Origin: Nitrosopumilus piranensis
Lineage (GTDB): Archaea; Thermoproteota; Nitrososphaeria; Nitrososphaerales; Nitrosopumilaceae
Reading direction: 5' to 3'
NCBI RefSeq assembly: GCF_000875775.1
Contig: NZ_CP010868.1
Coordinates: 1-64,000 of the forward strand
DNA length: 64,000 nt
How positions within the stretch are numbered: position 1 is the first letter of the stretch; the number at the start of each line of letters is the position of its first letter. Shown one piece after another: positions 1,173 to 56,333 of the stretch. Position numbers and translations under genes: made by a program. Below the pieces are notes generated by a model, which did no database searches, was not told where the DNA came from, and was given only the letters and a program-made list of their open reading frames with translations.

Positions 1173-1183
1173 TTTATGAGCAC

Positions 1184-3619: not shown

Positions 3620-3725
3620 TGCCTAAAATATTCCTGAGGATCCAGTTATTAAACCTCACTCTAAATTCACCTAAAAATATCAAATGTTTTGGGTAAATTT
3701 TCAATCTTGAAGAAAAAACTCGATC

Positions 3726-8494: not shown

Positions 8495-9067
8495 ATGGCT
8501 ACATCACAAATTCATAGTGTGTCAATAGTCATTACAGGAAATCCAGGTGTTGGGAAACATACTATTGCAAAAGAGATTTCACAAAAAATGCAATTAGAAA
8601 TAATTGACATTAATCAAATTGCAAAAGATTCAGGATTATTTGAGGAAAATGATGAGTCAAATGACGTAGATGCCAAAAAATTAAAAGAAATTCTTGATAA
8701 AAAAAATTTAAACAAATGTATCATTGTAGGACATTTAGCACCATATGTTTTAGATAAAAATAGAGTTAGTGTAGTTATTATTTTGAGACGTAGTCCATAT
8801 GATTTAATCAAAGTCTACAAAGAAAGAGGATATTCAAATAAAAAAAGCAATGAAAACGCTAGTAGTGAAATTCTAGGAATTATTACATATGATGCAAAAA
8901 ACCAGTTCAAAGACAAAGTTGTACAAATTAATGTTAGCCAAAAAGAGATTCAAGACGTTCTAAATAAAGTAGAGTCAGCTGTTTCAGGCAACAAAGATTC
9001 TGAAGAAGTAGATTGGCTTGATTTAGTTACCAAAAATAATGATTTGAAAAAATTTTTTGTTGATTGA
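8495..9067 (+). CDS. AK6/Fap7-like nucleoside monophosphate kinase family protein
   Basis: This 190-residue P-loop protein resembles the Fap7/AK6 group, which has adenylate kinase or ATPase activity and helps mature the 18S/16S rRNA 3' end. The N-terminal loop ITGNPGVGKHT and the following helix and DINQIAKDSGL segment match the family, and a LID-like part (RRSPYDLIKVYKERGY) follows. The residue after the P-loop lysine is His rather than the usual Thr or Ser that holds magnesium. The C-terminal third (after about residue 150) is less familiar. It sits 19 bases before tgtA and is likely co-transcribed. Confidence 0.8.
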   Translation: MATSQIHSVSIVITGNPGVGKHTIAKEISQKMQLEIIDINQIAKDSGLFEENDESNDVDAKKLKEILDKKNLNKCIIVGHLAPYVLDKNRVSVVIILRRSPYDLIKVYKERGYSNKKSNENASSEILGIITYDAKNQFKDKVVQINVSQKEIQDVLNKVESAVSGNKDSEEVDWLDLVTKNNDLKKFFVD

Positions 9068-9086
9068 TTAAATAACGCCTTTTGGT

Positions 9087-10610
9087 TTGAAAATATACTT
9101 GTTTGAGATATCAAAAACAGATTTGGCAGGCCGTATAGGCACTATAGAGACAAACCACGGAAAAATTGAAACACCAGCTTATGTTCCAGTCATTCATCCA
9201 GTAAAGCAAACAATTCCTTCAAAAAAAATCAAATCAATTGGTTTTGATTTGGTAATTACAAATGCATACATTACTAGAAACAACTACGGAGACAAAGCAA
9301 TAGAAAAAGGAATTCACAAAATTATAGATTATGACAAAGGGATTATGACAGACTCTGGAGGTTATCAGGTTTTAGAGTATGGTGATGTTCCAGTTTCTCC
9401 AACAGAAATGGCAGATTTTGAAGAAGGGATTATGACAGATTTTGCAATTCCATTAGATAAACCAACAGGGTTTGGACTTCCAGTAAAAAAAGCAGAAGCA
9501 TATGTCAAGCATACTCTCAAAGTCTGCAAAGAAACTATTGATAATAGTAAAAACAATGGACAGATTTGGATTGGGCCAATACAAGGAGGAGAACATTTTG
9601 AACTTGTTGCAAAATCAACAAAAGGTTTGATCAAAATGGGTTACAAAATGTTGGCCTTAGGAAGTCCAGTTGAATTTATGGAGTCATATGAATATAGATT
9701 GTTAGCTCAAATGATTGTTGCAGCAAAAAAACAGATTCCACATAACATACCACTGCATCTTTTTGGTGCAGGACATCCATTAACTATTCCATTTGCAGTT
9801 GCCCTAGGTTGCGATACATTTGATTCAGCTTCATACATGCTATATGCAAAACAAAACAGGTACATTACAGAAGATGGGACACGATATTTATCAGATATAG
9901 TAGTATTTCCATGCAATTGCGAAGTATGCTCAAAGTATACTCCTGATGAGTTACGACAGTTAGAATCAACTGAGAAGATTAATCAGATTGCCATCCATAA
10001 TCTGTATGCAATAAAATTAGAAGTTGACAAGGTAAAGCAGGCAATTCATGAAGGTAGGTTATGGGAATATGTTATCAAAAAAGCAAGGGCACATCCAAAA
10101 TTATTTGAGATGGTAGAGGTTATGACAGAAAATGCAGAATTTCTTAAAATTGCAACCCCAAAATTCAAGGAAAGGGCAATTTTTCTATTTGATAAAGAGG
10201 ATCAATACAGGCCCGAGGTGCAGTCATTTCATGAGACAGTAAGGAAATTCAAATCAAAGAAAAAGAAACTGCTAATCACAAAAGAGTCATCAACAAAGCC
10301 AGGATACCTATCTCACCAATTTGTTAATCTATCAAAAAAACTCAAAGATTTTGATGAAACTCAAGTTTGTCAATATAATCCCCAGTTAGGATTAATTCCA
10401 ATTGAGATTTCAGACATTTTTCCTGCTGCTCATCATGAGACATCAAGGATGAATTTTGATCCTAAAGAATTCTTAGAGTTTGGAAAGACATGGAAGGTAT
10501 TTTTTGAAAATAATCAATTTGTAGAAATTCGATATGACAAAAAGGATAATTTCTTAAAATATTTTGTAAAAACATTGCCAAAAAAAATCAAGAGAAAATC
10601 TTTTTCATAA
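9087..10610 (+). CDS. tgtA: Archaeosine tRNA-guanine transglycosylase, lacking PUA domain
   Basis: The enzyme exchanges G15 in the tRNA D-loop for preQ0, the first step to archaeosine. The catalytic core is clear: MTDSGGYQVLEYG (active-site Asp), FGAGHPLTIPFAVALGCDTFDSASY (nucleophile Asp) and a zinc site CxCxxC...H in FPCNCEVCSKYT. The start is a TTG at 9087; no better in-frame ATG is nearby. The region after about residue 370 looks like the archaeal C-terminal extension, but the protein ends at 507 residues without an obvious PUA domain, whereas complete archaeal enzymes reach about 580. Confidence 0.92.
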   Translation: MKIYLFEISKTDLAGRIGTIETNHGKIETPAYVPVIHPVKQTIPSKKIKSIGFDLVITNAYITRNNYGDKAIEKGIHKIIDYDKGIMTDSGGYQVLEYGDVPVSPTEMADFEEGIMTDFAIPLDKPTGFGLPVKKAEAYVKHTLKVCKETIDNSKNNGQIWIGPIQGGEHFELVAKSTKGLIKMGYKMLALGSPVEFMESYEYRLLAQMIVAAKKQIPHNIPLHLFGAGHPLTIPFAVALGCDTFDSASYMLYAKQNRYITEDGTRYLSDIVVFPCNCEVCSKYTPDELRQLESTEKINQIAIHNLYAIKLEVDKVKQAIHEGRLWEYVIKKARAHPKLFEMVEVMTENAEFLKIATPKFKERAIFLFDKEDQYRPEVQSFHETVRKFKSKKKKLLITKESSTKPGYLSHQFVNLSKKLKDFDETQVCQYNPQLGLIPIEISDIFPAAHHETSRMNFDPKEFLEFGKTWKVFFENNQFVEIRYDKKDNFLKYFVKTLPKKIKRKSFS

Positions 10611-21638: not shown

Positions 21639-24600
21639 TTAGCTTACGTTGACAGTTGTACTAACTGGTGGTGATAATGCCGTAGGATTATCTACTGATT
21701 CCCATACAAATGCTGTTGCAGTGTATGTGCCTGAGGCAGTTGGAATCCATGATAATGCTGGGCTGAATGATTGACCAGAAGATAGCGAACCTGTAATCCA
21801 TGCAAGTGAGACTGTGACACCGTTTGCATCCTGAATCTGTACCAAGTATGCAAATGATTGCTCTCTATCCTGACCATTTGCTAAGTCAGCGCTGATTTGT
21901 ACCTGTTGGTCAACGGAAACAGAGTCTAAGCTGTTACCGAATGCGTCAACGGTTCTCAAGTTAGCAGCTGGTGCTCTCTCGAGAGGTGGTACTACAGTGC
22001 CAATTAGTGAAGTGGCAGTAATATCAAGTTCATCTGCAGTTGTGTATGGATCAGGTAGTGTATTGTCCTCATATTCTGCGGTGACAGTGTCACCTTCTGA
22101 AACTCTGAGTCTGTGACCAGATGATTCATCAAGGGTTGTGAAGAACACAGTTCCCTCAAAGATTCCGGTTGCCTCATTAGTCTCAGTTACAGTGAGATCA
22201 ATACCTCCGGCATCGGAGTCAGACCACACATCGACATTGAAGTTGTCGACTGCTTCTGGATTAAAGTTCATGTCTGGATCAATTACTCTTATAACACCTG
22301 TTCCGCTTGCTGGGTAACTTGCTTCAAGCCATTGTACCTCACCAATGTTCCATCTGATAAGTGCAGAGCCTACGATTGTTTCATCCTCTGAGAACTCAAA
22401 GGAGATAGTAAGTCCGTCATCATCATCAGTTTCTATGAATCCATCGGTTGGACCTGTACCATCTGCAGATGTGCTTGCAAATGGACCTTCCTCAGTACCA
22501 TCACCGTCTGCATCGTGTTTGAATCCTGTAAGGATTACTTCACCTGTGAAGATGCCTGTGTCAGTACCAGTTTCGACGAGTTTGTACCTATCGATATCGA
22601 ATCCTCTAGTAGAGACCTTTATTGGATCACTGCTAGTTTCTCCGATTTCGTCAATTAGGTCACTGTCAAAGTTGTGATCTGGTGCGACAATGGTAATGTA
22701 TACTTTGTCAGTCCAGGTATAGACTTTTTGGTCAAGTTCCACAGTTGCTCCGAAGTTAGAAGTGTAGATTGTCAAGTTGACATCTTCATCTTCTTCACCT
22801 ACATAATCAGATCCGGATGGACCCCAATCGGTATACTCGAGGATAATTTCTTCTCCTCTTTCTAACTTGTCACCATTTAGTTCTTCAGGGATTTCGATGA
22901 CAATCTGGAAGATACCAGTGCTGTCACCTGTTTCTCTAAAGGCATCAGGTTCTGGGTCAAATGCTGCGGCTGCACCGGTAACACCTTTGTTACCCATGGT
23001 GGTAGTTGCGGCATCAGAGTCCCATTCGATCAAGTCCAAGTCATAGGTCTCAGCACTGTCATTGTCAAGATCAAAGTCTGGCTCAATGAGTGTTAAGATC
23101 ATGTCTGAACCGATAATGTATACGGATTTGTCGGATTGCAATACACCGTTTCTAAGGTCAAAGGTAGCAGAGTCTGTGACAGTGTTTGAGCTACCAGATG
23201 CATCAGCTGGGTCTGTGTATTCTACTTGGAGAATATCTCCTTGTAGGATACAGAAGTCCTCACCATCGTATGTATCTGAAACATCAAATCTGTCTTCTGT
23301 GTTACCTGTTGCAGTCTCGGTTTCATCAGTTCCTAACAATGCATATGTTGGATTGTTAGGACACAATGGAGAGGCTGGACCATCAGTGAATTTAACAGTT
23401 ACATCCAGTTCGAATATACCTGCATCTGGTGCGATTTCAGTAATTGGGCCAAAGACTCTGATTGCATCTTCTACTGTAGATGATAATGCAGTTGTTGCAA
23501 TTTTACCATTAACAGCAGCAGAACCAGCAGTTCCGAGAACGACAGTGTTAGAACCTCTTATTACAGAAATCTTAACAGGGCCGTCACCGTTTGCGTCAGC
23601 GGCTTCATTAATTGTATCTTCACCAGCGGGGTTTATGTCAAAGTCTGGATCATTTACTCTTACGTGAATTGTTAGATCTCCACTTGGGATTTCAAATCCT
23701 GATCCAATGTTATTGGTACCGATTCCGGTAGCATGTATTGGGAATAGTGATCTGCCACTTGGGGTAGATGCACTAGATGTGAAATCACCAGATGTTCCGA
23801 ATGGAACTGGATAGACAGTTCTATCAAGACTTACTGAACCGGTGTTTGCTCTAACACCTGCTGAATCGCCAACTTCGACGATTTCACCAGATGCATCTCT
23901 AAAGTCAACATAATTGACTTCAATATCAAGTCCGGTTGTTGTTTCTAGGTCACCTTTCCATTTGTATGGAGAACCACCAGATGATGGATCAGCATCGGTT
24001 ACTCTACACCATTTTGATGGAATCTGGAAGTCACCAATAAAGACACCAGTTGCAATTCCTGTTTCAACTAGAGTAAATCCAGTTGCACCAAGTCCTGTAT
24101 CTGAAATGTTGGCATCGGAGAATTCTTTTTCACAATCATCGGAGTTGTCGCCGGTTACGTCACCAGCACCTGTTGGGGTGGACCATCGAACATCATCAAA
24201 TGTGATATCTAATAATCTACCTAAGTCACCAAAGGAGAGGTCGGTAGTTAAACCGGTCTTTCCTACCGTGTCATAAGTAGTATCAGCAGTAGAAGTTACT
24301 ACTGTAAAGATATCAATAAGATCAGAGTCTACGTTAAGATCTAAGTCTTCTAAGGTAATTACTACAGTGTCAGCAGTCTTGTATGAATCTTGATTGAATG
24401 AAACAATACCAGAGTGGCTTGGAGCCTCTTCTTGATCAGATACTGGGGTTACAACACCATCTGCACCTCGATCATTGTATGAGACTCTTACTGCATCTTC
24501 ATCGGTTAGATCCTCAATTACTATGAATGAAGGATCATTTGCGATTGGTGATAAACCAGAGTATGTAGCCTCAGTTAAGATATTGAGTTGATTAACCATG

Positions 24601-26849
24601 ACATATTCAAGTGAACCCTCAAAGGTACTTGTGTTGTCACCTGTTTCTTCAGCTTCAATTCTTACGATTTGGTTAGCAACTCTTTCGGTAGATTGTACAC
24701 CATCATCAGTGAAACCAAATGAGAAGAAGTCTACTACTATTACTTCACCGTCAGAACTTGGAGTAAATCCAGCTGCTACGGAATTCAATAGTACTAAACC
24801 AACAAAGTCAGTATCACTTGCTGCATCTAATGCAGTTTGAATAGTTGACTCTTCAGATGAACTAAATACATGTAGATCTTGTGAACTAAGACCTGTTGTT
24901 AATGCGACTACTGTTGTGTCGCCAGTTTTTTCAGTATTTAATACATCTGCACCATCGGAGACACCATCTTCTTCGTTAATGATTGCATCATTATCGATAA
25001 GAAGGAATGCATTCCAGGTTCCAGTAGTAGACAAACTTCTCACATCAATGTTAAGAAGATTGAATCCATTGAAACTAGTAGCACCCTTAAAGGTATCTTC
25101 AAAGTCTGATACTGTTGTTTTATAATCAATAAAGACTGAGTCTACTGCAGTTGTTTCATCTGATGTGACTATTGCTCTATGGCTGAAAGCTTGAACTTTT
25201 GTAGTTGTATCTTGTTGTGATGCTATTGCATATCCAGGTAGAGCTGTGCCACCTGATGGATCTGCAGCTGCATCATTTTCAATATCTACAAATACAAATT
25301 CTGCTTTTGCACTAGAGCCGGTTCCTACTTCGCCAATTGTAAATGGATCACCAGTACTTAGTGCTGGGATTAAATCTACACTTACCTTATTAAGATCCAA
25401 GTCTTCATCTGATCTGCTGTTTTTGTTGGCATCACTATCAACAATAATAACTGGAATCTCTTCACCAGAGTTCCATTCATCATCGTTAGTTTGAATGTCA
25501 ACAGTTGCAAAGCCGAATCCTACAAGAATTGTCGTTGGGGTCTCATTATAATCAATTGATGCAGAGGTTCCCCTCTTTGCATCTGATGTGATTTTAAGAG
25601 CGGATACATCTGATTCATCATATGTACCAAATACACCGCTGTTTGGACCCTGTTCTGTAATTGTAACTGGGAAATCACCTGCGAGATTATCTGCTGCTGT
25701 CTGGAAGTTTAATCCGTCATTGGTATCTGTTTTACCAGTTGTTAATTCAATGGCAGAGTCACCATTATCTTGAACGGTGAGTACTTCAGTACCAGAGTTT
25801 TGAGCATCATCGTTGATGATTAGTATACAGTTGTCTTCACACATTAAGTCACTTAATTTAGTGGCAGTAAGTAAGTTGTCGTCTGTATTTCCATCAGTAT
25901 CACCGACTGCATTACCATTCTCGTCGAATACTTGGTAGTTAGTACTTTTTGCAGTACTTAATGTACCAAATGTCCAAGAATCTTCATCGGTTGGGTCAAT
26001 GTTCAACCACAAATCAGTTATTGTGGCATGAACTTGAGCACTTTGTGGATATACAGTTCTGTCTAATGAGATATTAGCAAAGTTTTCGACAGTATCAAAT
26101 GTGAGTGTTGTTGTTTGAACACCACCACCTTTGTTATACTGTACTACTACGTTACCAGAAACTGTGAAATCATAGAGTTGAATGATTGGCCAGAAATCAC
26201 CATCAATGCCGATTTGACCGACACCAGCGTCTCCTGGTTTAGTTGTATTTGGAGATTTTGCTTCTCTTACAACATTCATTTCATTCTCAGTGGTTGCAGA
26301 TACTGCTGTACCTGTAGAACCAGCGTTAGCACAGGTGGTTGCACCTGAATCGATTGTACCGAGTCCATCGACACCAGCACAATCAGCTTTATCAGGAATA
26401 GCAACACCTACGGTATCACCGAATGTTACAGTTTTACCACTTGCTCCTAGGTTAGTAGATTTTCCGACGAATTCACCAAAGTCAAGACCTTCACCATCAT
26501 TAGTTACAGTAGAATCTGCAATTTGTGCTTGGCTTTTGTCTGCAAAGTAACCATACCAGTTACCATCGACGGCTTGTACCATTCTAAGTATTTGGCCGTT
26601 TATTGTAACATCTGGTTCACCTTTTGCCTCATCTGTGTCATTAATGTCTGAGTCAATTACAACGACCTCAATTACTTGAGGACCTGACATGTAGTTGTCA
26701 AACTGTGAGTTTTCTGCGGAAACAAATAGGTTGGCGTTGGCTGCATGAGCAGCAGGCATTACACCTGGAACTGCAAATGTCAGTCCACCGGCAACCATAA
26801 TTGTCATTAATGTAAGACTAGTTATTTTACGTCCTATTTCGTTATTCAT
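21639..26849 (-). CDS. slaA: S-layer protein, Nitrosopumilus type, 1736 aa
   Basis: This is the main lattice protein of the cell envelope. A signal peptide (residues 1 to about 36, ending AAHA) is followed by a long Asp/Glu-rich beta chain of repeated Ig-like domains. Each repeat has a strand such as SLDRTVYP or KVYTWTDKVYITI, a D(x)N/D segment and the recurring ETGxxTGIFxG motif (seen at least seven times). There is no C-terminal anchor. Size and features match the S-layer protein known from Nitrosopumilus maritimus, whose acidic lattice has been proposed to funnel ammonium ions. The gene is clearly richer in G and C than its neighbours, as expected for a very highly expressed gene. Confidence 0.93.
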   Translation of the reverse strand: MNNEIGRKITSLTLMTIMVAGGLTFAVPGVMPAAHAANANLFVSAENSQFDNYMSGPQVIEVVVIDSDINDTDEAKGEPDVTINGQILRMVQAVDGNWYGYFADKSQAQIADSTVTNDGEGLDFGEFVGKSTNLGASGKTVTFGDTVGVAIPDKADCAGVDGLGTIDSGATTCANAGSTGTAVSATTENEMNVVREAKSPNTTKPGDAGVGQIGIDGDFWPIIQLYDFTVSGNVVVQYNKGGGVQTTTLTFDTVENFANISLDRTVYPQSAQVHATITDLWLNIDPTDEDSWTFGTLSTAKSTNYQVFDENGNAVGDTDGNTDDNLLTATKLSDLMCEDNCILIINDDAQNSGTEVLTVQDNGDSAIELTTGKTDTNDGLNFQTAADNLAGDFPVTITEQGPNSGVFGTYDESDVSALKITSDAKRGTSASIDYNETPTTILVGFGFATVDIQTNDDEWNSGEEIPVIIVDSDANKNSRSDEDLDLNKVSVDLIPALSTGDPFTIGEVGTGSSAKAEFVFVDIENDAAADPSGGTALPGYAIASQQDTTTKVQAFSHRAIVTSDETTAVDSVFIDYKTTVSDFEDTFKGATSFNGFNLLNIDVRSLSTTGTWNAFLLIDNDAIINEEDGVSDGADVLNTEKTGDTTVVALTTGLSSQDLHVFSSSEESTIQTALDAASDTDFVGLVLLNSVAAGFTPSSDGEVIVVDFFSFGFTDDGVQSTERVANQIVRIEAEETGDNTSTFEGSLEYVMVNQLNILTEATYSGLSPIANDPSFIVIEDLTDEDAVRVSYNDRGADGVVTPVSDQEEAPSHSGIVSFNQDSYKTADTVVITLEDLDLNVDSDLIDIFTVVTSTADTTYDTVGKTGLTTDLSFGDLGRLLDITFDDVRWSTPTGAGDVTGDNSDDCEKEFSDANISDTGLGATGFTLVETGIATGVFIGDFQIPSKWCRVTDADPSSGGSPYKWKGDLETTTGLDIEVNYVDFRDASGEIVEVGDSAGVRANTGSVSLDRTVYPVPFGTSGDFTSSASTPSGRSLFPIHATGIGTNNIGSGFEIPSGDLTIHVRVNDPDFDINPAGEDTINEAADANGDGPVKISVIRGSNTVVLGTAGSAAVNGKIATTALSSTVEDAIRVFGPITEIAPDAGIFELDVTVKFTDGPASPLCPNNPTYALLGTDETETATGNTEDRFDVSDTYDGEDFCILQGDILQVEYTDPADASGSSNTVTDSATFDLRNGVLQSDKSVYIIGSDMILTLIEPDFDLDNDSAETYDLDLIEWDSDAATTTMGNKGVTGAAAAFDPEPDAFRETGDSTGIFQIVIEIPEELNGDKLERGEEIILEYTDWGPSGSDYVGEEDEDVNLTIYTSNFGATVELDQKVYTWTDKVYITIVAPDHNFDSDLIDEIGETSSDPIKVSTRGFDIDRYKLVETGTDTGIFTGEVILTGFKHDADGDGTEEGPFASTSADGTGPTDGFIETDDDDGLTISFEFSEDETIVGSALIRWNIGEVQWLEASYPASGTGVIRVIDPDMNFNPEAVDNFNVDVWSDSDAGGIDLTVTETNEATGIFEGTVFFTTLDESSGHRLRVSEGDTVTAEYEDNTLPDPYTTADELDITATSLIGTVVPPLERAPAANLRTVDAFGNSLDSVSVDQQVQISADLANGQDREQSFAYLVQIQDANGVTVSLAWITGSLSSGQSFSPALSWIPTASGTYTATAFVWESVDNPTALSPPVSTTVNVS

Positions 26850-30086: not shown

Positions 30087-31034
30087 CTAAATATTGGATT
30101 TTCGGGTTAAGTAGACATTTGCAACTTGTGGAGGAATGATTTGTTTGATCAATTCAGATTTACTTATAGATTTCAAGGAGCTTGTGTTTTCATCAATCAT
30201 GTATAATTGAAATCCCATCTCAGAAAGGGGATCTAAAAGATCATCAGGAGTCGTATCAGAAAAATTTAGTGTGAATGGATTGTATTCAAAGACAATATCA
30301 ATATTTTTATTTTCAAGTGTGTTTTTCATACCTTCAAAGATAAGAGGTTCTTGTCCTTCAGCATCAATAAAAATCAGATCAATGTTTTTTTTCTCATTTT
30401 TTAAAAAATCATCAACGGTAATTGTTGGGACTTTAATTTCGTTTAATTGTGGAAATTTTTTTTTTGAAATAAAGTTGTGTAATGAACTTCCTCCAGTCAA
30501 GAGAGTTGCAAAATCAGTTTTATTTGAAACTGCTTTTGATTCAACTTGAACATTTTGAAATCCATTTGAATCAATATTTTTTTTCAAAAGTTCTACTGTT
30601 TTTGGAAATGGTTCAAATGCAAACACTTTACCTTCAGGACCTATTTGTCTTGCAGCTAAAAGCGTAAAGTAACCAATGTTAGCTCCAATATTGATTACAT
30701 TCATTCCTTTTTTTAGAATTTTCTTTAGAAAATTTGTTGTTCCTGGTTCATATTCTACTACAAGATACGTTTCAATTGCAACTTTATCATTGCAATCGAG
30801 AGATAAAGTATTTTCAGCAAGTGTAATACTAATAGTTTCGGTTTTTGGATCATATGCTTGCTTTTTTAATTCTAAAAGTTCGGCCTCCTTAGAGAATTTA
30901 ATTTTATTAAACAAGCCTTCAAAGTTTAAACCTGAATCAATTTGATTATTCCAGTAATCAATTTCAACTTGATTTGGGGTACGATCTAAAAATAATTCAT
31001 ATAATTTTGTGATTTGTTGAGTCAAGTCACTCAT
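30087..31034 (-). CDS. FkbM-family methyltransferase with N-terminal DUF4214-like segment
   Basis: This S-adenosylmethionine-dependent O-methyltransferase probably methylates a sugar hydroxyl in the glycan. The start ATG at 31034 is chosen over a TTG at 31043. An N-terminal part (ITKLYELFLDRTPNQVEIDYW) looks like DUF4214. The SAM-binding motif NIGANIGYFTLLAA is followed by FEPFP and the family DLIFIDAEGQE. A stretch of 69 residues is identical to the next FkbM protein because the two genes share a 208-base perfect repeat. Confidence 0.87.
   Translation of the reverse strand: MSDLTQQITKLYELFLDRTPNQVEIDYWNNQIDSGLNFEGLFNKIKFSKEAELLELKKQAYDPKTETISITLAENTLSLDCNDKVAIETYLVVEYEPGTTNFLKKILKKGMNVINIGANIGYFTLLAARQIGPEGKVFAFEPFPKTVELLKKNIDSNGFQNVQVESKAVSNKTDFATLLTGGSSLHNFISKKKFPQLNEIKVPTITVDDFLKNEKKNIDLIFIDAEGQEPLIFEGMKNTLENKNIDIVFEYNPFTLNFSDTTPDDLLDPLSEMGFQLYMIDENTSSLKSISKSELIKQIIPPQVANVYLTRKSNI
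30546..30753. repeat. 208-base direct repeat, copy 1
   Basis: This segment is identical, as far as can be read base by base, to 31514-31721. It lies inside the SAM-binding region of the FkbM gene at 30087. Sequence on both sides diverges at once. Confidence 0.93.
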
Positions 31035-31054
31035 AGTCGTCAATATACCATATA

Positions 31055-32515
31055 CTATATAATTTCAGATATGTGTTTTGTTAAAAATAAAGTTGCAGTA
31101 TTAGGAAATTTCATTTTTAATAATTCATTTTTGATATAGGTTTTAGGCATTCCATCTGCATCAATGATTTGTATGTTAAAATCAAGTTTTTCTAGTTTTT
31201 CTAAAAATTCACTCCCGCTAGTACCTGCAATTTTTAGTGTATGTGGGTTATATTCTGTAAGGATTTGTATTGGCGCATTTTTTTCAAGGGATTTTTTCAT
31301 ACCATCAAATATTCTAGACTCATATCCTTCTGCATCCATTATAATAAAATCAATTTGGGCAGATTCATCAAAATAATCATCAATAGTAGTAGTAATAATT
31401 TCTAGATAATCATATTCATTGGGAGGAGCAGGTGTTACAAAATTGTGCCCACTATCAGATTTTAATGCAAGAAAAGAATTTTCTTTTCTATCAGATACTG
31501 CCAAAGTAATAATTTGAACATTTTGAAATCCATTTGAATCAATATTTTTTTTCAAAAGTTCTACTGTTTTTGGAAATGGTTCAAATGCAAACACTTTACC
31601 TTCAGGACCTATTTGTCTTGCAGCTAAAAGCGTAAAGTAACCAATGTTAGCTCCAATATTGATTACATTCATTCCTTTTTTTAGAATTTTCTTTAGAAAA
31701 TTTGTTGTTCCTGGTTCATATAGTTCATTATTTGAAAATGGTTCTAGATAATTTTTGTCATTAAAATTAAAATGAATTATTTGATTATCAATTTTTTTGT
31801 AACAAAATGTATCATCATACATCATAATACCTTTTGTACTAAGTTCATTTTTCAATACTTTTTTTGCCTCATCCGATTTTTTTATTATCATAAGTTGTTT
31901 GTAAACAGGATCATCCATAAAATCATATTCAAATAATTGTTTTAACTCTGAAGAAGTTGGATCTCTTTTTAGATAGTAATGATATGCATTAAAGATAGTT
32001 AAGAGATCAATTCTAACAGAATCACTTTCAAGTTTATCGATTCTTAGTTGATGTTTAAGTTCAATAGAATCTAGAATTTTTTTTAGTCCATTTACTGATC
32101 TCGTTATATTAATATTAAATTTAATTTGTTTGTCCACAATAGGATTTAATGCAAATCGTACTTCATTTTGTATTAAATTTCTAAATTTTAAAACTAATTT
32201 TCTAATGAGTTTTGGTTTGAATGTGTCAATTTTGTTTATTGTTTGAATATCATAAGACAAATTTGCTTGAATAAGATTTTCATCAAAATCATCATTAAAG
32301 ATATTTAAATTATTCTTTTTTTGTTCTTTTGAAACTACAGCATCAAGTTCAGCAACACGCTCTAAATTTTTAGAATCAAGGTGAGATAATTGTTCTTGAT
32401 ATCTTGATGAAGCTAATGAAATAATATTTTCAGAGGTAATTTTTGAAGGTTGTGAGGAATTTTGAATTTGATTTTTTATTTCATCCATAATTTTTTTGAC
32501 TTCATTTTCAATCAT
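31055..32515 (-). CDS. FkbM-family methyltransferase with long helical N-terminus
   Basis: The C-terminal half of this 486-residue protein is an FkbM methyltransferase (NIGANIGYFTLLAA, FEPFP, DFIIMDAEGYES). The first 170 or so residues are charged and helical, probably coiled coil (KKIMDEIKNQIQNS, ELDAVVSKEQKKNN), followed by a DUF4214-like part (IFNAYHYYLKRDPTSSEL). The N-terminal part may hold it to a glycan assembly complex. It starts 11 bases after the upstream glycosyltransferase stop and 20 bases precede the next methyltransferase, so all are likely one transcript. Confidence 0.87.
   Translation of the reverse strand: MIENEVKKIMDEIKNQIQNSSQPSKITSENIISLASSRYQEQLSHLDSKNLERVAELDAVVSKEQKKNNLNIFNDDFDENLIQANLSYDIQTINKIDTFKPKLIRKLVLKFRNLIQNEVRFALNPIVDKQIKFNINITRSVNGLKKILDSIELKHQLRIDKLESDSVRIDLLTIFNAYHYYLKRDPTSSELKQLFEYDFMDDPVYKQLMIIKKSDEAKKVLKNELSTKGIMMYDDTFCYKKIDNQIIHFNFNDKNYLEPFSNNELYEPGTTNFLKKILKKGMNVINIGANIGYFTLLAARQIGPEGKVFAFEPFPKTVELLKKNIDSNGFQNVQIITLAVSDRKENSFLALKSDSGHNFVTPAPPNEYDYLEIITTTIDDYFDESAQIDFIIMDAEGYESRIFDGMKKSLEKNAPIQILTEYNPHTLKIAGTSGSEFLEKLEKLDFNIQIIDADGMPKTYIKNELLKMKFPNTATLFLTKHISEII
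31514..31721. repeat. 208-base direct repeat, copy 2
   Basis: This is the identical partner of 30546-30753, in the same orientation, offset by 968 bases. Recombination between the copies would delete 968 bases and join the front of the longer FkbM gene in frame to the end of the shorter one. Confidence 0.93.
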
Positions 32516-46459: not shown

Positions 46460-48076
46460 TTAGATTTTTTGATCATCAAATTTAGTATTGATAATTCTAA
46501 TGATTTCATGAACTCCATTTAATAGATCGTGTTTTTCAAGATTTTTACGTAATTCTAGTCTAAAATCATAATCCATCATTTTGATTATTGCATTTTGAAA
46601 AGATTTCATAGTAAGATTATTTATCGATCCTAAGTGAATTGCACCACCTGAAATTCTTGAAAATTTATGTAATTCTTCTCTTTCATGAACTGAAACTGTG
46701 ATCATAGGCACCTTAAGTGAAGCAATTTCAAAAACAGTTCTGCCATTAGCTGTTATCACAAAATCAGATTCACGAATATATTTTGCCATTATATCAGATT
46801 GTTCAATAATTCTCACATTTTGTGAATTTTGGTTCATTTGGAAAACCAATTTTTTAATTTTATTTTTATGAGCATTTCCCATTCCCAAAATAACAACAAT
46901 TTTTTGTTTAAAATTATTTTTTGATAGTAATTCTAAAACAGGCAAAGTCAAATTTTGAGGATCAGTTCCACCAAAAGTTAATAAAATATTTTTTACTTTT
47001 TTTCTAATTGGTTTACTATGTAAAATTCTAAATTCATCACGAACACAAGCATAATTACTTCCGAAAAATTTACGAGGTTTAGTTTTATTTGTTACATATA
47101 TTGGATTAAAAACTAAATCAGCTAAATCACTTCCAGGACCTAAATCTTCAAAATTAACTATAAATGAATTAGATTTACGCAATTTCTTCATGTACGATGT
47201 TGTAGTATAAAGAATATCATTGAAAATCAGATCGGGTTTAAAGTTTTGTAAAATGCCATTAAATTCTTTGTTATTTGAGTAAAATTTTACTTTATACAAT
47301 TGTTTACGAAGTTTTTGATGTCCAAGATTTTTACTTTTTTCCATAACAATTAGAATTTCATTATTTCGTAAGTAGTTTAGAATAGTAATCATGTTATAGA
47401 CATGACCTAATCCAATTTTATTAGAACCGTTAACACAAACAAGTATTTTTCTCCTGTTGAGGATTTTTTCTATTTGTTCTAAATCATGATAATTTTTAGC
47501 TATAAATCCCTCAGTAGGAGAAAGTTTAATGCCTACATAAGAAGGATTGAATTTTTTATTTTTAAGAAAATATTGAATATCAAAACCAAAAATAGTTCTA
47601 GAGCTAACAATATTTTCTTGCACAGATAATTTACTTAAATTGTGTTTAAGAGAAGATTTTGTAAAAGTATCAGAATTTTCAACATATCCAGTAACGGTAT
47701 GATTTTTTGAGATTTTGGGGAAAAATTTTCGAATAGTATTTTTTTCAATTAATGGCAAATCTGAAAAAATAACTAAACATTTTTTATAATTAAAATTTGA
47801 TTCTTTGAATGCATCTAAAGCATTTTTGATGATTTTTTCAGAATTAGATAAGTTAGTATCTTTTAAAAAAATTACATTAGGGGTATATTGTAAAGAAACT
47901 TCTTGAATTGCTTCAGAATCGGTTACAACAAAAACATCGGCACATTTTGCATCAATACATGTTCTTAAAACATAATACAGTAATGGATTGTTATTTACAA
48001 GACGTAGATTGTGTTGAGAAATATTTTTGTTATTACTAAATGCAGGAATTAAAATAAGATTGGTAGTTTTTTTCAT
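46460..48076 (-). CDS. CMP-nonulosonate synthetase-like domain fused to PseG-like sugar hydrolase/transferase
   Basis: Residues 1-220 resemble a NeuA/PseF cytidylyltransferase (ILIPAFSNNKNISQHNLRLV, VVTDSEAI, FSDLPLI). The usual Arg and Gly of the first loop are changed (PAFSNNK in place of PARxGSK), which may affect activity. Residues about 225-535 are a PseG/MurG-like GT-B domain (GSNKIGLGHVYNM, LLTFGGTDPQN, VITANGRTVFEIASL). In pseudaminate synthesis PseG removes UDP before PseI acts, so the fusion joins an early and a late step. The gene ends 3 bases before the NeuB-type gene starts, in the same direction. Confidence 0.87.
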   Translation of the reverse strand: MKKTTNLILIPAFSNNKNISQHNLRLVNNNPLLYYVLRTCIDAKCADVFVVTDSEAIQEVSLQYTPNVIFLKDTNLSNSEKIIKNALDAFKESNFNYKKCLVIFSDLPLIEKNTIRKFFPKISKNHTVTGYVENSDTFTKSSLKHNLSKLSVQENIVSSRTIFGFDIQYFLKNKKFNPSYVGIKLSPTEGFIAKNYHDLEQIEKILNRRKILVCVNGSNKIGLGHVYNMITILNYLRNNEILIVMEKSKNLGHQKLRKQLYKVKFYSNNKEFNGILQNFKPDLIFNDILYTTTSYMKKLRKSNSFIVNFEDLGPGSDLADLVFNPIYVTNKTKPRKFFGSNYACVRDEFRILHSKPIRKKVKNILLTFGGTDPQNLTLPVLELLSKNNFKQKIVVILGMGNAHKNKIKKLVFQMNQNSQNVRIIEQSDIMAKYIRESDFVITANGRTVFEIASLKVPMITVSVHEREELHKFSRISGGAIHLGSINNLTMKSFQNAIIKMMDYDFRLELRKNLEKHDLLNGVHEIIRIINTKFDDQKI

Positions 48077-50409: not shown

Positions 50410-51261
50410 TTATTCTTTAGTAAATTTAGATAAGACGTATTGTAATTCATCATTAATTATTCTACCATAGCCACTAACATGTAATTTTAAAATTGAATTA
50501 AAATTTTTGAAAATAAATTTGATTCCAAATAGTTCAATACACCATTTTAGAAATGGGACAAACATAAAGAGTAATTCAAGTCTATCAATCTTATAGAGGT
50601 TTTTAAAAATTTCATAACTCCTTGCCGAAGAAGATTCTCCCAGAGCAGAACGGTGAAACAATATTTCATCAATCACATTTAGTTCACCAAATTTCAAAAT
50701 AGCCAAAATAATTGAAAGATCCCATGGAAGATGATGAAAATATACAGATTGTTTTAAACAGTCTGTTCTAAAAATTGAATAGATCGCAGTAGATTCAGCT
50801 AGTTTCAGATATGTTGAAAAACGTTGTTCATAGTTTCCTCTAGCAGGAATTACAGGTAAAAATATTGGATCTTTTGCATATCGATTAGTAGAATTTCCAA
50901 AAAAATCAACTTTACTAATACTTCCAACAGTATTAGGATCAGATTCTAAAACTTGAATATTTTTTTCAATAAAAGAATCTTCCCAAAGATCATCATCTGC
51001 TGCCCACATAAAATATTGTGAAGTTGCATTTTCTAAAACATATGAAAAATTTTTCAATGGACCAATATTTTTATCTTGTCTGTAATACTTTATTCTCGAA
51101 TCTTTTTTTGCATACTCTCTACAAATTTTTTCTGTGTTATCATTTGAAGCATTATCCGATATTATTAACTCAAAATCTGTAAATGTTTGGTTTAACAATG
51201 AATTAATGGATTTTTCTATGGATTTCTCTCCGTTATAGACAGGTAATCCTATTGAAAGCAT
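50410..51261 (-). CDS. Family 2 glycosyltransferase (copy a)
   Basis: This 283-residue inverting GT-A enzyme has GLPVYNGEKSIEKSINSLL at the N-terminus, SDNASNDNT for donor binding, a metal-binding WAADDDLW (DxD-like) and a C-terminal helical part. The first 66 codons are base-for-base identical to copy b at 55470, and a further 62-base block (50914-50975) is also identical; the rest differs, suggesting another acceptor or donor. It begins 12 bases after the epimerase stop, so it is probably expressed from the heptose operon. Confidence 0.9.
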   Translation of the reverse strand: MLSIGLPVYNGEKSIEKSINSLLNQTFTDFELIISDNASNDNTEKICREYAKKDSRIKYYRQDKNIGPLKNFSYVLENATSQYFMWAADDDLWEDSFIEKNIQVLESDPNTVGSISKVDFFGNSTNRYAKDPIFLPVIPARGNYEQRFSTYLKLAESTAIYSIFRTDCLKQSVYFHHLPWDLSIILAILKFGELNVIDEILFHRSALGESSSARSYEIFKNLYKIDRLELLFMFVPFLKWCIELFGIKFIFKNFNSILKLHVSGYGRIINDELQYVLSKFTKE

Positions 51262-51265
51262 GATT
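51062..51265. repeat. 204-base inverted repeat, left arm
   Basis: The minus strand here is identical to the plus strand at 55466-55669. It covers four bases before the ATG and the first 66 codons of glycosyltransferase copy a. The inner ends of the two arms enclose exactly 4200 bases (51266-55465). Confidence 0.95.
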
Positions 51266-51273
51266 TACAAATA

Positions 51274-52290
51274 TTATAATATCCTATCATTAATCATTAA
51301 TTCTTTTTTCAATTCTATATCATTTTCAATGTGTTTATACCAATCTAAAGTGATTGTTTTTAGTGATGTATCTACAGTATTGTTTTGTAATGAATCAAAT
51401 AGTTCTTTAACTCCATCAATTAGTGAAAAATTTACCTTAAATCCAGTAATATTATGAATTTTATCAAATGAAAGGGAATATGACCTATGATCGTTGTTAT
51501 CGCCAAGCTCTACTTCACATTTAGGGTTAAGTGCATTTTTAATTTCATAAGCTAATTCACCCATAGAATAATTTTGATTATTATCTCCAACATTAAAAAT
51601 TTGGCCAGAAATATCATTTATTTTTGCATTTAGAATTGATTTGTATGCATTAACTGCATCTTTAATATGTATAAATGGTCGAGTGTTATTTTTACCTCTT
51701 ACAGTAATCTTTCCATTTTGAAATAAATCTAAGACCATACTATTAACAGAAATATCAAATCTCATTCTAGGAGAAACGCCAAAGATACTTGAAAATCTTA
51801 ATGCAGTTACTGAAAAAGAATCATCATTAAGTTTCATAGAATCAATTTCTGCATTTCTATTAGCTTTAGAGTATGAAGTTAATGGAAAAACAGAAAAAGT
51901 TTCATTTGCAATTTTTTCTTGTTTTCCATAAATACTTGCACTGGATGCTAAAATATACTGTTTTACACCTTTATTCTTACTTTCCAAAGCAACTCTAGCC
52001 CTTCCCAAATGATTAATTTCAAATGTTTTTTCAGGATTTAACTCTCCAATCGGATCATTTGACAATGCAGCTAAATCCAATACAACATCTACATCATCAA
52101 GAATTGAAGGGTCAAACCATCTAATATCATCTTTAAGCAATTCTAAACGATCATTTTGTAGATTTTTAAAAAATTTATCACCAAAAAAGAATCGATCTAG
52201 ACATTTGATATGATATCCATCGTTAAGTAATTGTGGAATTAATACTGAACCTACATATCCAGCACCTCCAGTTATGAAAATTTTCTTCAT
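51274..52290 (-). CDS. NAD-dependent nucleotide-sugar epimerase/dehydratase (extended SDR)
   Basis: The N-terminal ITGGAGYVGSVLI binds NAD, LAALSNDPIGE and SSASIYG are in place, and FIHIKDAVNAY is the usual later motif. The Tyr-x3-Lys site reads Y-S-K-A-N, so asparagine occupies the normal lysine position while another lysine sits two places earlier. Some bacterial relatives that I recall share this YxKAN form. It lies with the heptose genes and probably epimerises or reduces the activated heptose, but this is inference. Confidence 0.87.
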   Translation of the reverse strand: MKKIFITGGAGYVGSVLIPQLLNDGYHIKCLDRFFFGDKFFKNLQNDRLELLKDDIRWFDPSILDDVDVVLDLAALSNDPIGELNPEKTFEINHLGRARVALESKNKGVKQYILASSASIYGKQEKIANETFSVFPLTSYSKANRNAEIDSMKLNDDSFSVTALRFSSIFGVSPRMRFDISVNSMVLDLFQNGKITVRGKNNTRPFIHIKDAVNAYKSILNAKINDISGQIFNVGDNNQNYSMGELAYEIKNALNPKCEVELGDNNDHRSYSLSFDKIHNITGFKVNFSLIDGVKELFDSLQNNTVDTSLKTITLDWYKHIENDIELKKELMINDRIL

Positions 52291-52346
52291 TTTGAAATAT
52301 TATTTTTAGACTTATTAATTATAGTTACTTTTTAAAGAAAAATTTA

Positions 52347-52820
52347 TCATTTCAATATGGTATTAACTGCATTTTCTAAAAAATATTCAGATTTTATCTT
52401 TTTTGTGTTACAACCCATTTTCTCTCCAGCTAAAATATCGGATTCACTATCACCAATAAACCAACTATTTTTAAAATCAATATCAAATTGGGTTGCAGCT
52501 AATTCTAATAAACCAGTTTTTGGTTTACGACAACCACATTTTTCATCTGGCCTATGAGGACAATAAAAGAAACCATCTATTTTCATCTCTAATTTAGATT
52601 GTATTTTTTCATGTATTGCTTGTATTTTTTGATGAGTACTTAAACCACGATTTATTACAGATTGATTAGTTATCACAATTACAAGATAATTATTTTGTTT
52701 AATTTTTTTTATAATAGTATCAAGATTAGGTAAAATTTCTAATTCTTCAACATTTTTGACATAATCGCTCCTTTTTTTATTAATAACTCCATCACGATCT
52801 AAAAAAAATACTTTATTCAT
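52347..52820 (-). CDS. gmhB: D-glycero-manno-heptose 1,7-bisphosphate phosphatase-like HAD protein
   Basis: A 157-residue HAD phosphatase of the GmhB/histidinol-phosphatase group. The nucleophile and acid/base aspartates are in FLDRDGVINKK, ITNQS gives the second motif, and the zinc loop CPHRPDEKCGCRKPKTG is typical of GmhB. The lysine of motif III is in this zinc-loop region and IGDSESDI supplies the late acidic residues. It would remove the 7-phosphate of heptose 1,7-bisphosphate. The stop of gmhA is 2 bases upstream. Confidence 0.9.
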   Translation of the reverse strand: MNKVFFLDRDGVINKKRSDYVKNVEELEILPNLDTIIKKIKQNNYLVIVITNQSVINRGLSTHQKIQAIHEKIQSKLEMKIDGFFYCPHRPDEKCGCRKPKTGLLELAATQFDIDFKNSWFIGDSESDILAGEKMGCNTKKIKSEYFLENAVNTILK

Positions 52821-52822
52821 TT

Positions 52823-53416
52823 TTAATTATATTTGAATTGAGGATTTCCTAATTTTCTAATGGTAGAAACAATTCCGTGACACAATAAAACATGTTGTGA
52901 TTCAATTGTTAGCATATCAGTACTTGGAACACGAATACATAAATCGCAATATTGTTTCATTTTTCCACCTAAGGAACCAGAAAATCCGATACATTTTACA
53001 TGATTTTTTTTACAGAATTTTAAAGCTGAAATAAGATTTTTTGAATTACCACTACCACTAAAAGCAATTACAACATCCCCATTAGAAACAGTATTTTTTA
53101 GTTGTTCAATAAATATACGATCATAAGAAACATCATTTGACCATGCAAGAATTACAGGAATATTATCTGTTAAGGAAAATGCTTGAAATCTTTTTTTGTC
53201 TTTTATAATTGCTGTTTTTAATAAATCTGAAACAAAATGAGAGGCAGTAGAACCTGAACCGCCATTTCCCATTGTAAAAATTTTTTTGCCATTATTTCTT
53301 GCTTTTATTAGTAAACGGATCAAGTCTTCTAGGTCTTTAGAATTTTTTGTGATGTTGGACACGCATATTTTTTGTTCGTCTAAAAATGAATGTAAAATAG
53401 GCTCAATTTTCTTCAT
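52823..53416 (-). CDS. gmhA: Sedoheptulose 7-phosphate isomerase-like SIS protein
   Basis: This 197-residue SIS-domain isomerase of the GmhA group converts sedoheptulose 7-phosphate to glycero-manno-heptose 7-phosphate. TMGNGGSGSTASHFVSDL is the substrate-binding loop, IAFSGSGNSKNL the second phosphate site, and ESQHVLLCHGI the C-terminal helix with the catalytic Glu and His. The usual SAADAQH of bacterial GmhA is SGSTASH here. It is in one run with gmhB and the kinase. Confidence 0.9.
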   Translation of the reverse strand: MKKIEPILHSFLDEQKICVSNITKNSKDLEDLIRLLIKARNNGKKIFTMGNGGSGSTASHFVSDLLKTAIIKDKKRFQAFSLTDNIPVILAWSNDVSYDRIFIEQLKNTVSNGDVVIAFSGSGNSKNLISALKFCKKNHVKCIGFSGSLGGKMKQYCDLCIRVPSTDMLTIESQHVLLCHGIVSTIRKLGNPQFKYN

Positions 53417-53455
53417 GAGTTTTTGCTATTAATCTTAATTATAAGGATTGTTGAT

Positions 53456-54493
53456 TTAGTTTTGATTCTGAGTTTTATTGGACATGTATGCAATTTCAGG
53501 ACCTTTATCATATAGGTTAAAATCTATATGTTTTAATTTCATACTTTCCAATTTGTGAATTAGTTTTTGTTGATTCTTTTTTTCACAATAAAATAGCATA
53601 TGTCCGCCACCACCAGCACCAGTCAATTTACCACCTGTTGCACCATTTTTTATTGCTATTTGATAAATTTTATCAATTTTACTATTTGAAACACCTTTTA
53701 CAAATTCTCTTTTTTTCAGCCAAGATTTATTTAAAATTTCACCAAATTTGGTAATATCATTATTTCGTAATGAATCATGCATTTCTTGACATAATAACTT
53801 CACTTGATTTAGAGAATTGATAATCACTTTGTCTTTATTTTTGATTCTAGATAATTGTTGTGATAAAATACTTGTACTATTTCTTGTATCTCCAACAAAA
53901 AATAAAATTAAATTTTGATCTAGTTTCTTTAATGTGGGTTTATTTATTTTGATTTTTTCTACTTTAATTTTTTCTTTATTGAAAGTGATATATTTTAATC
54001 CGCCATAAGATGCAATATACTCATCTTGTTTACCAATAGGCATTTTTAATAATTTTCTACCAATATGAAATGAATCCTCTGCAATTTGACTTTTTGAAAT
54101 TTTTTTCTGTTTTATTTTATGTATAGTATAAACTAGATTTACAGTTAATGAACCAGAACCTCCAAGGCCTGAACCACCAGGAACATCACTAGCTACAATA
54201 ACATTAACTCCCTGTTTAAATTTCAAATATTTGATAACGGCTACTGCCAATTCTGAGCCAGTTTCAATCTTGATTTTACTATATTTTGTTGGTTTGTAAT
54301 GTGCTTCAAAATCAGGAGAAAATGCTTGAAATGAGTCATCATATCTTGGATGAAATATAGCATAAGTGAATTTTGATATGGTGCTAGTTAGAACATTTCC
54401 GCCGAATTCATTGAAGTATTCAGGCATGTCAGTTCCCCCTCCTGAGAAACTTATTCTAACAGGGGTTGATCCAATAATCACAAAATATCTCAC
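53456..54493 (-). CDS. hddA: GHMP kinase, D-glycero-alpha-D-manno-heptose 7-phosphate kinase-like
   Basis: This GHMP-family kinase resembles HddA, which phosphorylates heptose 7-phosphate at C1. TPVRISFSGGGTDMPEYF opens it, GGSGLGGSGSLTVNL is the ATP loop, and KLTGAGGGGHMLFY the C-terminal motif. The open frame starts at GTG 54493; a GTG four codons later (54481, VIIGSTPVRI) gives the usual HddA start. It is the second gene of the minus-strand heptose run, after the RmlD-like gene. Confidence 0.9.
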   Translation of the reverse strand: MRYFVIIGSTPVRISFSGGGTDMPEYFNEFGGNVLTSTISKFTYAIFHPRYDDSFQAFSPDFEAHYKPTKYSKIKIETGSELAVAVIKYLKFKQGVNVIVASDVPGGSGLGGSGSLTVNLVYTIHKIKQKKISKSQIAEDSFHIGRKLLKMPIGKQDEYIASYGGLKYITFNKEKIKVEKIKINKPTLKKLDQNLILFFVGDTRNSTSILSQQLSRIKNKDKVIINSLNQVKLLCQEMHDSLRNNDITKFGEILNKSWLKKREFVKGVSNSKIDKIYQIAIKNGATGGKLTGAGGGGHMLFYCEKKNQQKLIHKLESMKLKHIDFNLYDKGPEIAYMSNKTQNQN

Positions 54494-54514
54494 ATTGGAC
54501 TCATTTATTTTTCT

Positions 54515-55420
54515 TTAATTTTGTTTCTTGTAATCTAATTTATGAGAATTTTCAACTAGAAAAGAAATTCCTTTTTTTATATCACAAAATTCATAATCAA
54601 TAATTTTTTCCAATTTTGATGAATCAAGACATGTTTTTTTTGGCCTAGGCGCTTCTTGTTTTTTTTGTTCAGAAGTTACAGGAAGGATAAGTTTCGAATC
54701 AAAACCAAATTGAGAAGAGATTTCTTTTGCAAATTCATATCGATTTAAACAAGTTTTTCCAGTTGCATGAAACAAACCAGAAACATCCTTAGAGATAATT
54801 TTTAGAATGGAAATTGCTAGATCATCAACTAATGTGGGAGTGTTAAATTGATCAACATGAGGATCGACTATTTTATTTTGAATTAAGTTACCTATTATCC
54901 AATTTGTAAATCTAGATTTTTTATGATTTCCATAAATTACTGATGTTCTCAAGATTACGTTATTTTTTTCACATAAGACAATTTTTTCAGCATTTAATTT
55001 TGTTAAGCCATAGTAATTAATGGGGTTTGGAAGATCTTTTTCAACATATTTTAGATCAGTTTTACCATCAAACACAGCATCAGTTGAAAAATAAATTAGT
55101 TTTGAATTTATTTTTGAACAAATGTCAGTGATAATTTTTGTTGTTTTTACGTGTAAATTGTTTGCGATTTCTGGATTTTTTTCACATAAATCAACACTAG
55201 GGTGTGCTACAGTGTTTATTACTACATCAGGTTCTAAATTTTTAATTAAATCAATTATATCTTGTTCATTATCTAATAAATTCAATTGTGATGTTTGAAC
55301 ATTTTGTTTTTCAAATGGATTTGTATTATATGTAACATGTAATTCGTAATCATCTGCATATTCTAATAGAGTACTTCCAACTAATCCACTCCCCCCAATT
55401 ATTAATAATTTTTTTGTCAT
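54515..55420 (-). CDS. RmlD-like dTDP/NDP-4-keto-sugar reductase
   Basis: A 301-residue extended SDR of the RmlD_sub_bind group: IIGGSGLVGSTLLEY for NAD(P), VVINTVAHPSVDLCE, YFSTDAVFDG and YYGLTKLNAE with the catalytic Tyr and Lys. It may reduce a 4-keto nucleotide sugar, possibly of the heptose pathway. It is the first gene of the minus-strand run 55420-51274 and its promoter faces away from glycosyltransferase copy b across 49 bases. Confidence 0.88.
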   Translation of the reverse strand: MTKKLLIIGGSGLVGSTLLEYADDYELHVTYNTNPFEKQNVQTSQLNLLDNEQDIIDLIKNLEPDVVINTVAHPSVDLCEKNPEIANNLHVKTTKIITDICSKINSKLIYFSTDAVFDGKTDLKYVEKDLPNPINYYGLTKLNAEKIVLCEKNNVILRTSVIYGNHKKSRFTNWIIGNLIQNKIVDPHVDQFNTPTLVDDLAISILKIISKDVSGLFHATGKTCLNRYEFAKEISSQFGFDSKLILPVTSEQKKQEAPRPKKTCLDSSKLEKIIDYEFCDIKKGISFLVENSHKLDYKKQN

Positions 55421-55439
55421 AAATTACAGTAAATGTGAT

Positions 55440-55449
55440 TTTTTATAAT
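55440..55449 (+). promoter_or_regulatory. TATA box of glycosyltransferase copy b
   Basis: TTTTTATAAT is centred about 25 bases before the ATG at 55470. It lies just inside the segment bounded by the 204-base inverted repeats, so inversion would move it in front of copy a. Confidence 0.5.
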
Positions 55450-55465
55450 CCTTAGTTTTTTAAGT

Positions 55466-55669
55466 AATCATGCTTTCAATAGGATTACCTGTCTATAACG
55501 GAGAGAAATCCATAGAAAAATCCATTAATTCATTGTTAAACCAAACATTTACAGATTTTGAGTTAATAATATCGGATAATGCTTCAAATGATAACACAGA
55601 AAAAATTTGTAGAGAGTATGCAAAAAAAGATTCGAGAATAAAGTATTACAGACAAGATAAAAATATTGG
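55466..55669. repeat. 204-base inverted repeat, right arm
   Basis: This is the partner of 51062-51265, in opposite orientation and identical throughout. It covers four bases before the ATG and the first 66 codons of glycosyltransferase copy b. A second 62-base identical block follows at 55756-55817, matching 50914-50975. Confidence 0.95.
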
Positions 55670-56333
55670 ATTTATAAAAAATTATGAATATGTGTTAAAA
55701 CAATCTGAAAAGAAATATTTTATGTTTACATCAGATCATGACATTAAAGAAAAAACTTTTATTGAAAAAAATATTCAAGTTTTAGAATCTGATCCTAATA
55801 CTGTTGGAAGTATTAGTGAAATTGATTTTTATGGAAATGAAAAAGAATTAAAAATTAGATATCGAGGAAAAGGGAATTATAAAATAAAGGAAAAATATCG
55901 TTTTGTTCATCCAGCAAAGGGTTCATTTCAAGATAAATTTGTTTTTTATTTAAATTTCATGGAATCATCAATGTTATACGGAATATTCAGAAGAAAAGAA
56001 TTACAAAATTGCATAGGGTTTCACCATCAGCCATGGGACTTAATGGTAATTTTAAGGATTTTAGAATATGGGGATTTACATGTAATTGATGAAATTTTAC
56101 TTCACAGATTTGTAGGTGGTCTATCATCTAAAGATATATACAAAAATTTGCGAGGAGAAAAATTCAGTAGAATAGAATTATTATTTATGTTCGCCCCATT
56201 TTTTAGATATGTGATAAATCAATTTGGTTTTGGGTTTTTCATCAAAAATTTCAAAATAATGATAAAATTATGTATTAGAGGACATGGAAGAATAATTCTA
56301 GATAATTTTAGAAAGATGAGAGATTTATTTTAA
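55470..56333 (+). CDS. Family 2 glycosyltransferase (copy b)
   Basis: This 287-residue GT-A enzyme has the same first 66 residues as copy a (GLPVYNGEKSIEK..., SDNASNDNT). It then differs: the metal site reads TSDHDIKE instead of AADDDLWE, and the C-terminal acceptor-side part is distinct. The two enzymes probably add different sugars or use different acceptors. It has its own TATA box and converges with the next epimerase gene (9 bases of overlap). Confidence 0.9.
   Translation: MLSIGLPVYNGEKSIEKSINSLLNQTFTDFELIISDNASNDNTEKICREYAKKDSRIKYYRQDKNIGFIKNYEYVLKQSEKKYFMFTSDHDIKEKTFIEKNIQVLESDPNTVGSISEIDFYGNEKELKIRYRGKGNYKIKEKYRFVHPAKGSFQDKFVFYLNFMESSMLYGIFRRKELQNCIGFHHQPWDLMVILRILEYGDLHVIDEILLHRFVGGLSSKDIYKNLRGEKFSRIELLFMFAPFFRYVINQFGFGFFIKNFKIMIKLCIRGHGRIILDNFRKMRDLF

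Follow-up and report, generated by a model that had tools for sequence, protein, structure and literature searches.

The window analysed here, the first 64 kb of the AT-rich genome (G000; 1.713 Mb, single contig) of a marine ammonia-oxidising archaeon, probably a Nitrosopumilus by its gene content, contains two family-2 glycosyltransferase (GT) genes, GTa and GTb, which share identical tracts in opposite orientation on the two sides of a putative heptose-sugar operon. Judged from the sequence, these tracts almost certainly result from recent homologous exchange (gene conversion) between what appear to be old GT2 paralogues standing head to head around the operon. A fuller explanation, in which the pair is homogenised by conversion and host recombination also flips the operon, has in our estimate an even chance of being correct.

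A perfect inverted repeat on the 5' ends of the two divergent GT genes had been described in the initial annotation, and it is exact, each 204-nt arm comprising 4 upstream nucleotides, 66 codons and 2 further nucleotides. The arms are 100% complementary, lie 4200 nt apart, and are the only two copies of this 204-mer found by a search of the whole 1.713-Mb single-contig genome. A second identical tract, absent from that annotation, lies further inside both genes; an exact search found one copy of the 62-mer on each strand. The homology between GTa and GTb is a mosaic in which the 204-nt tract is followed by about 90 nt (about 30 codons) of divergent sequence, the 62-nt tract, and divergence to the end of the genes. 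In the gene alignment the runs of identical codons number 66 and then 20. Outside the tracts, DNA identity is about 59%, 85 of 190 residues match, and the same codon is used at 46 of 82 common residues. With the rate taken from these outside regions, an unbroken match over 65 and over 20 synonymously variable codons has a probability of about 5e-17 and 1e-5, respectively, rough values in which codons are treated as independent. Since the tracts contain no synonymous change, protein-level selection cannot account for them, while recent DNA exchange can; and with genes only about 59% identical elsewhere, the exchange must have been between old paralogues and not the sequel of a recent duplication. 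No Rfam match was found at the locus.

As its plain alternative to a switch, the initial annotation had offered recent gene conversion or duplication. The data demand gene conversion, and the codon test rejects recent duplication. Trees of the N-terminal and C-terminal parts of the GTs, built separately with FastTree, do join GTa directly to GTb in the C-terminal tree, with a support of 0.986, as a recent duplication of one GT followed by fast 3' divergence would, yet the two have only 44% of residues in common there, their synonymous codons are near random, the tracts are free of synonymous change, and a divergent stretch separates the two identical tracts. In a second genome with a similar pair, described below, the C-terminal halves do not clearly group together. 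Recently duplicated copies would be uniformly alike, so this origin is scarcely credible. Inverted repeats are a possible source of assembler error, and an artefact of this kind could in principle have produced the arms; the two tracts with divergence between them, the two open reading frames, and the same layout with other sequence in a second single-contig genome make it negligible. Segmental gene conversion between paralogues likewise yields two identical tracts inside divergent genes, and the tracts here are bounded by saturated divergence; a recurrent head-to-head layout around an operon is, in contrast, not predicted by conversion alone.

The features of the locus are listed in Table 1. 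The presence of five minus-strand genes between the arms was confirmed, while the names RmlD, HddA, GmhA, and GmhB are best-family matches below the NCBIfam equivalog cut-offs. Orthologues of the HddA-like gene are located beside GmhA/GmhB in one relative (G093) and beside RmlD in another (G054).

Table 1. Coordinates of the glycosyltransferase pair, the genes between its members, and related features (positions in the window unless L039, a locus of genome G004, is given)
Feature	Position	Strand	Evidence or remark
GTa, family-2 glycosyltransferase, 283 aa	50410-51261	-	PF00535 6e-31; last gene of heptose operon
Second identical tract in GTa	50914-50975	-	62 nt, codons about 97-116
Inverted-repeat arm 1	51062-51265	-	4 upstream nt + GTa 5' end (66 codons + 2 nt)
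NAD-dependent sugar epimerase/dehydratase	51274-52290	-	PF01370 9.9e-31
GmhB-like HAD phosphatase (heptose bisphosphatase)	52347-52820	-	NCBIfam PRK08942 2.2e-45, below equivalog cut-off
GmhA-like sedoheptulose-7-phosphate isomerase	52823-53416	-	NCBIfam PRK13936 1.2e-31, below cut-off
HddA-like heptose-7-phosphate kinase (GHMP)	53456-54472	-	NCBIfam HddA 6.8e-54, below cut-off
RmlD-like reductase	54515-55420	-	PF04321 3.9e-61; first gene of operon
TATA-like run in 49-nt divergent intergenic region	55440-55449		sequence; putative function
Inverted-repeat arm 2	55466-55669	+	4 upstream nt + GTb 5' end
GTb, family-2 glycosyltransferase, 287 aa	55470-56333	+	PF00535 1.1e-27; divergent from operon
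Second identical tract in GTb	55756-55817	+	62 nt
FkbM 208-nt identical direct repeat	30546-30753 and 31514-31721	-	same island as GT pair
G004 GT2 gene 1	L039:2901-3842	-	same GT subfamily as GTa/GTb, head to head
G004 inner gene, radical-SAM-type	L039:3929-5899	+	putative, judged from its sequence
G004 GT2 gene 2	L039:5926-6837	+	same GT subfamily, head to head

The exchange between the two GT genes would be carried out by the RadA/Hjc recombination of the cell itself. As GTa and GTb lie in opposite orientation, some exchanges would be resolved as crossovers inverting the 4.2-kb operon, with GTb then standing at the operon end and GTa behind the divergent promoter. Were the crossover to fall in the second tract, the middle segments with the DXD region would be swapped as well. 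The DXD-bearing segment and the C-terminal half, presumed to govern the choice of acceptor, have remained different in the two proteins. Inversion had been predicted earlier to leave both proteins intact, to make GTb the last gene of the operon, and to move a TATA-like element in front of GTa. This was borne out when a crossover within the arms was simulated: both proteins were unchanged, GTb instead of GTa followed the heptose operon, and GTa now had the divergent intergenic region in front of it. The TATA-like run in this region is about 20 nt from the start codons of both RmlD and GTb, and is possibly a bidirectional leaderless promoter. A second TATA-like run is present in the operon end and the 12-nt spacer preceding GTa. 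Because such runs precede both GTs, both genes may be transcribed in either state, a flip may have little effect, and the on/off effect proposed in the initial annotation is not assured; inversion would more likely shift the relative dose of the two GTs. The proposed switch of the transferase made with the heptose enzymes thus agrees with the anatomy and the simulated rearrangement, and is weakened on the side of expression. A sigma-70 promoter scan of the locus, a promoter type wrong for an archaeon, gave no more matches than shuffled sequence.

No recombinase gene was found near the locus with the profiles of tyrosine (PF00589) and serine (PF00239) recombinases. The latter profile has no match in the genome; the former has matches elsewhere, the nearest at 425.8 kb, about 370 kb away. 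Genes of the RadA/Rad51 family and Hjc are present. A site-specific inversion system, in which a dedicated tyrosine or serine recombinase would act in trans on short sites inside the arms, could draw on the tyrosine recombinase genes elsewhere in the genome. It is nevertheless very improbable given the distance of about 370 kb, the missing serine recombinase match, the length of the arms (204 nt instead of 10-40 nt) and their position almost wholly within coding sequence, and the different arm sequence in the second genome. Should the segment invert, this would probably be the work of the homologous recombination of the host.

A comparable pair is present in this second genome, G004, of the same genus (1.56 Mb, single contig). 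Its arms span 338 nt with 95% identity and contain two series of identical codons, 62 and 32 long, with a short divergent stretch between them. The two proteins are 97% identical in the region of the first tract and only 34% identical in their C-terminal halves, each of which is nearer to a third GT encoded 11 kb away (40-41%) than to its partner. The pair is joined at 0.999 in the N-terminal tree, and in the C-terminal tree one copy groups with the third GT with weak support (0.706). The arm sequences differ between the two genomes. In both, the inner gene or operon heads toward one GT and is divergent from the other, the spacer before the former being 12 nt in G000 and 26 nt, to the longest open reading frame, in G004. 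The GT subfamily occurs in 12 of the 330 genomes of the class, with more than one copy in G000 and G004 only, and both of these carry a homogenised inverted pair. The recurrence is independent and strengthens the idea of inversion.

The same island of the window also holds two adjacent FkbM methyltransferase genes on the minus strand (30087-31043 and 31055-32515), which share a 208-nt identical tract in direct orientation and are much more diverged in the rest. As this direct pair has been homogenised where inversion is impossible, the identity of the tracts alone is no proof of flipping. It is compatible with gene conversion only, in which non-crossover exchange homogenises the conserved donor-binding front of the GTs and there is no relevant flipping. 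We rate this reading at a little less than even; it gains from the two-tract mosaic, a classic signature of conversion, from the same signature in the two FkbM genes (30.5-31.7 kb), and from the lack of an invertase nearby. It is at odds with the fact that exactly this inverted layout, with the pair flanking an operon, recurs in both multi-copy genomes, of which there are just two. Moreover, some crossovers normally occur alongside conversion between inverted copies. The original reading of the segment as invertible is accordingly supported by the anatomy and by the recurrent layout, and loses ground through the direct FkbM pair and the absence of a neighbouring invertase. On sequence grounds, inversion of the 4.2-kb segment at an appreciable rate in populations comes just short of an even chance.

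The survey of repeat pairs covered glycan islands of the genus and family totalling 1.07 Mb (one assembly per species) and a 0.4-Mb control consisting of 20 evenly spaced 20-kb stretches of G000. Beyond the pairs of G000 and G004, no further inverted pair above 85% identity was found in these islands and control. An inverted pair of 85% identity over 175 nt, in the 3' part of a GT4-type gene, lies in G009 (L069, 5751-5925 and 11198-11372); it was rejected as a locus of the same kind, one copy being merely a fragment. Direct pairs were commoner than inverted ones and were mostly tandem repeats. One of them, a 610-nt identical direct repeat in G000 (C1:1357421-1358030 and 1358517-1359126; L117:7421-8030 and 8517-9126), sits in two genes whose products are Lys/Pro/Ala-rich repeat proteins with KPAE-type repeats. 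A relative with flipped gene order was sought among 95 species of the genus, none of which has a full-length GTa homologue above about 44% identity. G093 and G054 each have the heptose operon with one GT, and are uninformative on orientation because of the single GT and the rearranged locus. A scan of further genome contigs for GT homologues gave distant bacterial GTs only.

Phase variation by DNA inversion is well known in bacteria. In Campylobacter fetus, a segment of several kb at the sap locus reportedly flips by recombination within coding 5' ends. As in the GT pair, the sap genes are inverted surface-gene paralogues with identical 5' ends whose proteins stay intact after the flip; the GT pair shares with them the identical inverted 5' coding arms, found also in G004, and the intact proteins in the simulated inversion. 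At sap, however, one promoter moves and the other copies are silent, while both GTs may be transcribed either way; and inversion is proven there, in a bacterium, whereas here it is plausible, in an archaeon, with a biosynthetic operon as the inner segment. For the inversion of sap, which encodes S-layer protein, a passage of PMC5634654 cites Ray et al. 2000. The type I hsdS loci of S. pneumoniae (PMC4948785) also have inverted repeats within the coding sequence of neighbouring paralogues, and exchange there brings conserved and variable parts of the proteins together in new combinations. They differ in having one main expressed allele to which the partners supply variants, instead of two full-length genes, and in that one inversion needs the local recombinase PsrA, whereas the GT pair has no local recombinase and has an intervening operon. 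Invertons, or gene-altering programmed inversions (Milman et al. 2023, as cited in PMC11892184), resemble the GT pair in involving inverted gene pairs at surface-structure loci; described across bacteria, they typically combine short repeats, usually outside coding sequence, with an adjacent recombinase, while the GT pair has 204-nt arms inside genes and no recombinase gene at the locus.

A small read-based survey that included six archaeal samples found no inversions in archaea (PMC5903667), and according to a 2025 review the archaeal distribution of phase variation by DNA inversion is still to be mapped (PMC11868660). If inversion holds, a locus of this type is, as far as could be found, apparently undescribed in this archaeal group. 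A recombinase-free inversion pair that recurs at glycan loci in abundant marine archaea would be a tangible case open to testing, and could plausibly help cells to escape viruses or grazers attaching to sugars on their surface. That the locus is a selected surface-glycan switch seems rather unlikely. Glycoproteomics of N. piranensis, one species of this genus and not necessarily the one analysed here, revealed no clear N-glycan (PMC12153357), which speaks against the fuller explanation. We are similarly doubtful of the broader proposal that in ammonia-oxidising archaea RadA-driven inversion between homogenised GTs serves as a recombinase-free reversible surface-glycan switch, recurring with different inner operons in Nitrosopumilus-like species. 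Under conversion only, the pairs would show that the front ends of GTs are kept alike while their acceptor parts diversify.

Several other genes of the window deserve mention. An S-layer-like protein of 1736 aa (21639-26849, minus strand) has a signal-like N-terminus and 9 N-X-S/T sequons; its gene lies about 25 kb away from the two GT genes, and the protein is likely a target of the glycan pathway or else a neighbour of it. Within the island of the GT pair, an apparent fusion of a PseF-like cytidylyltransferase with a PseG-like hydrolase (46460-48076, minus strand) adjoins a NeuB/PseI-like synthase, and together they would constitute a nonulosonic-acid pathway. At the very beginning of the window, a repeat-rich open frame of at least 811 aa (1-3620, minus strand) contains many degenerate internal direct repeats that are 63-95% alike.
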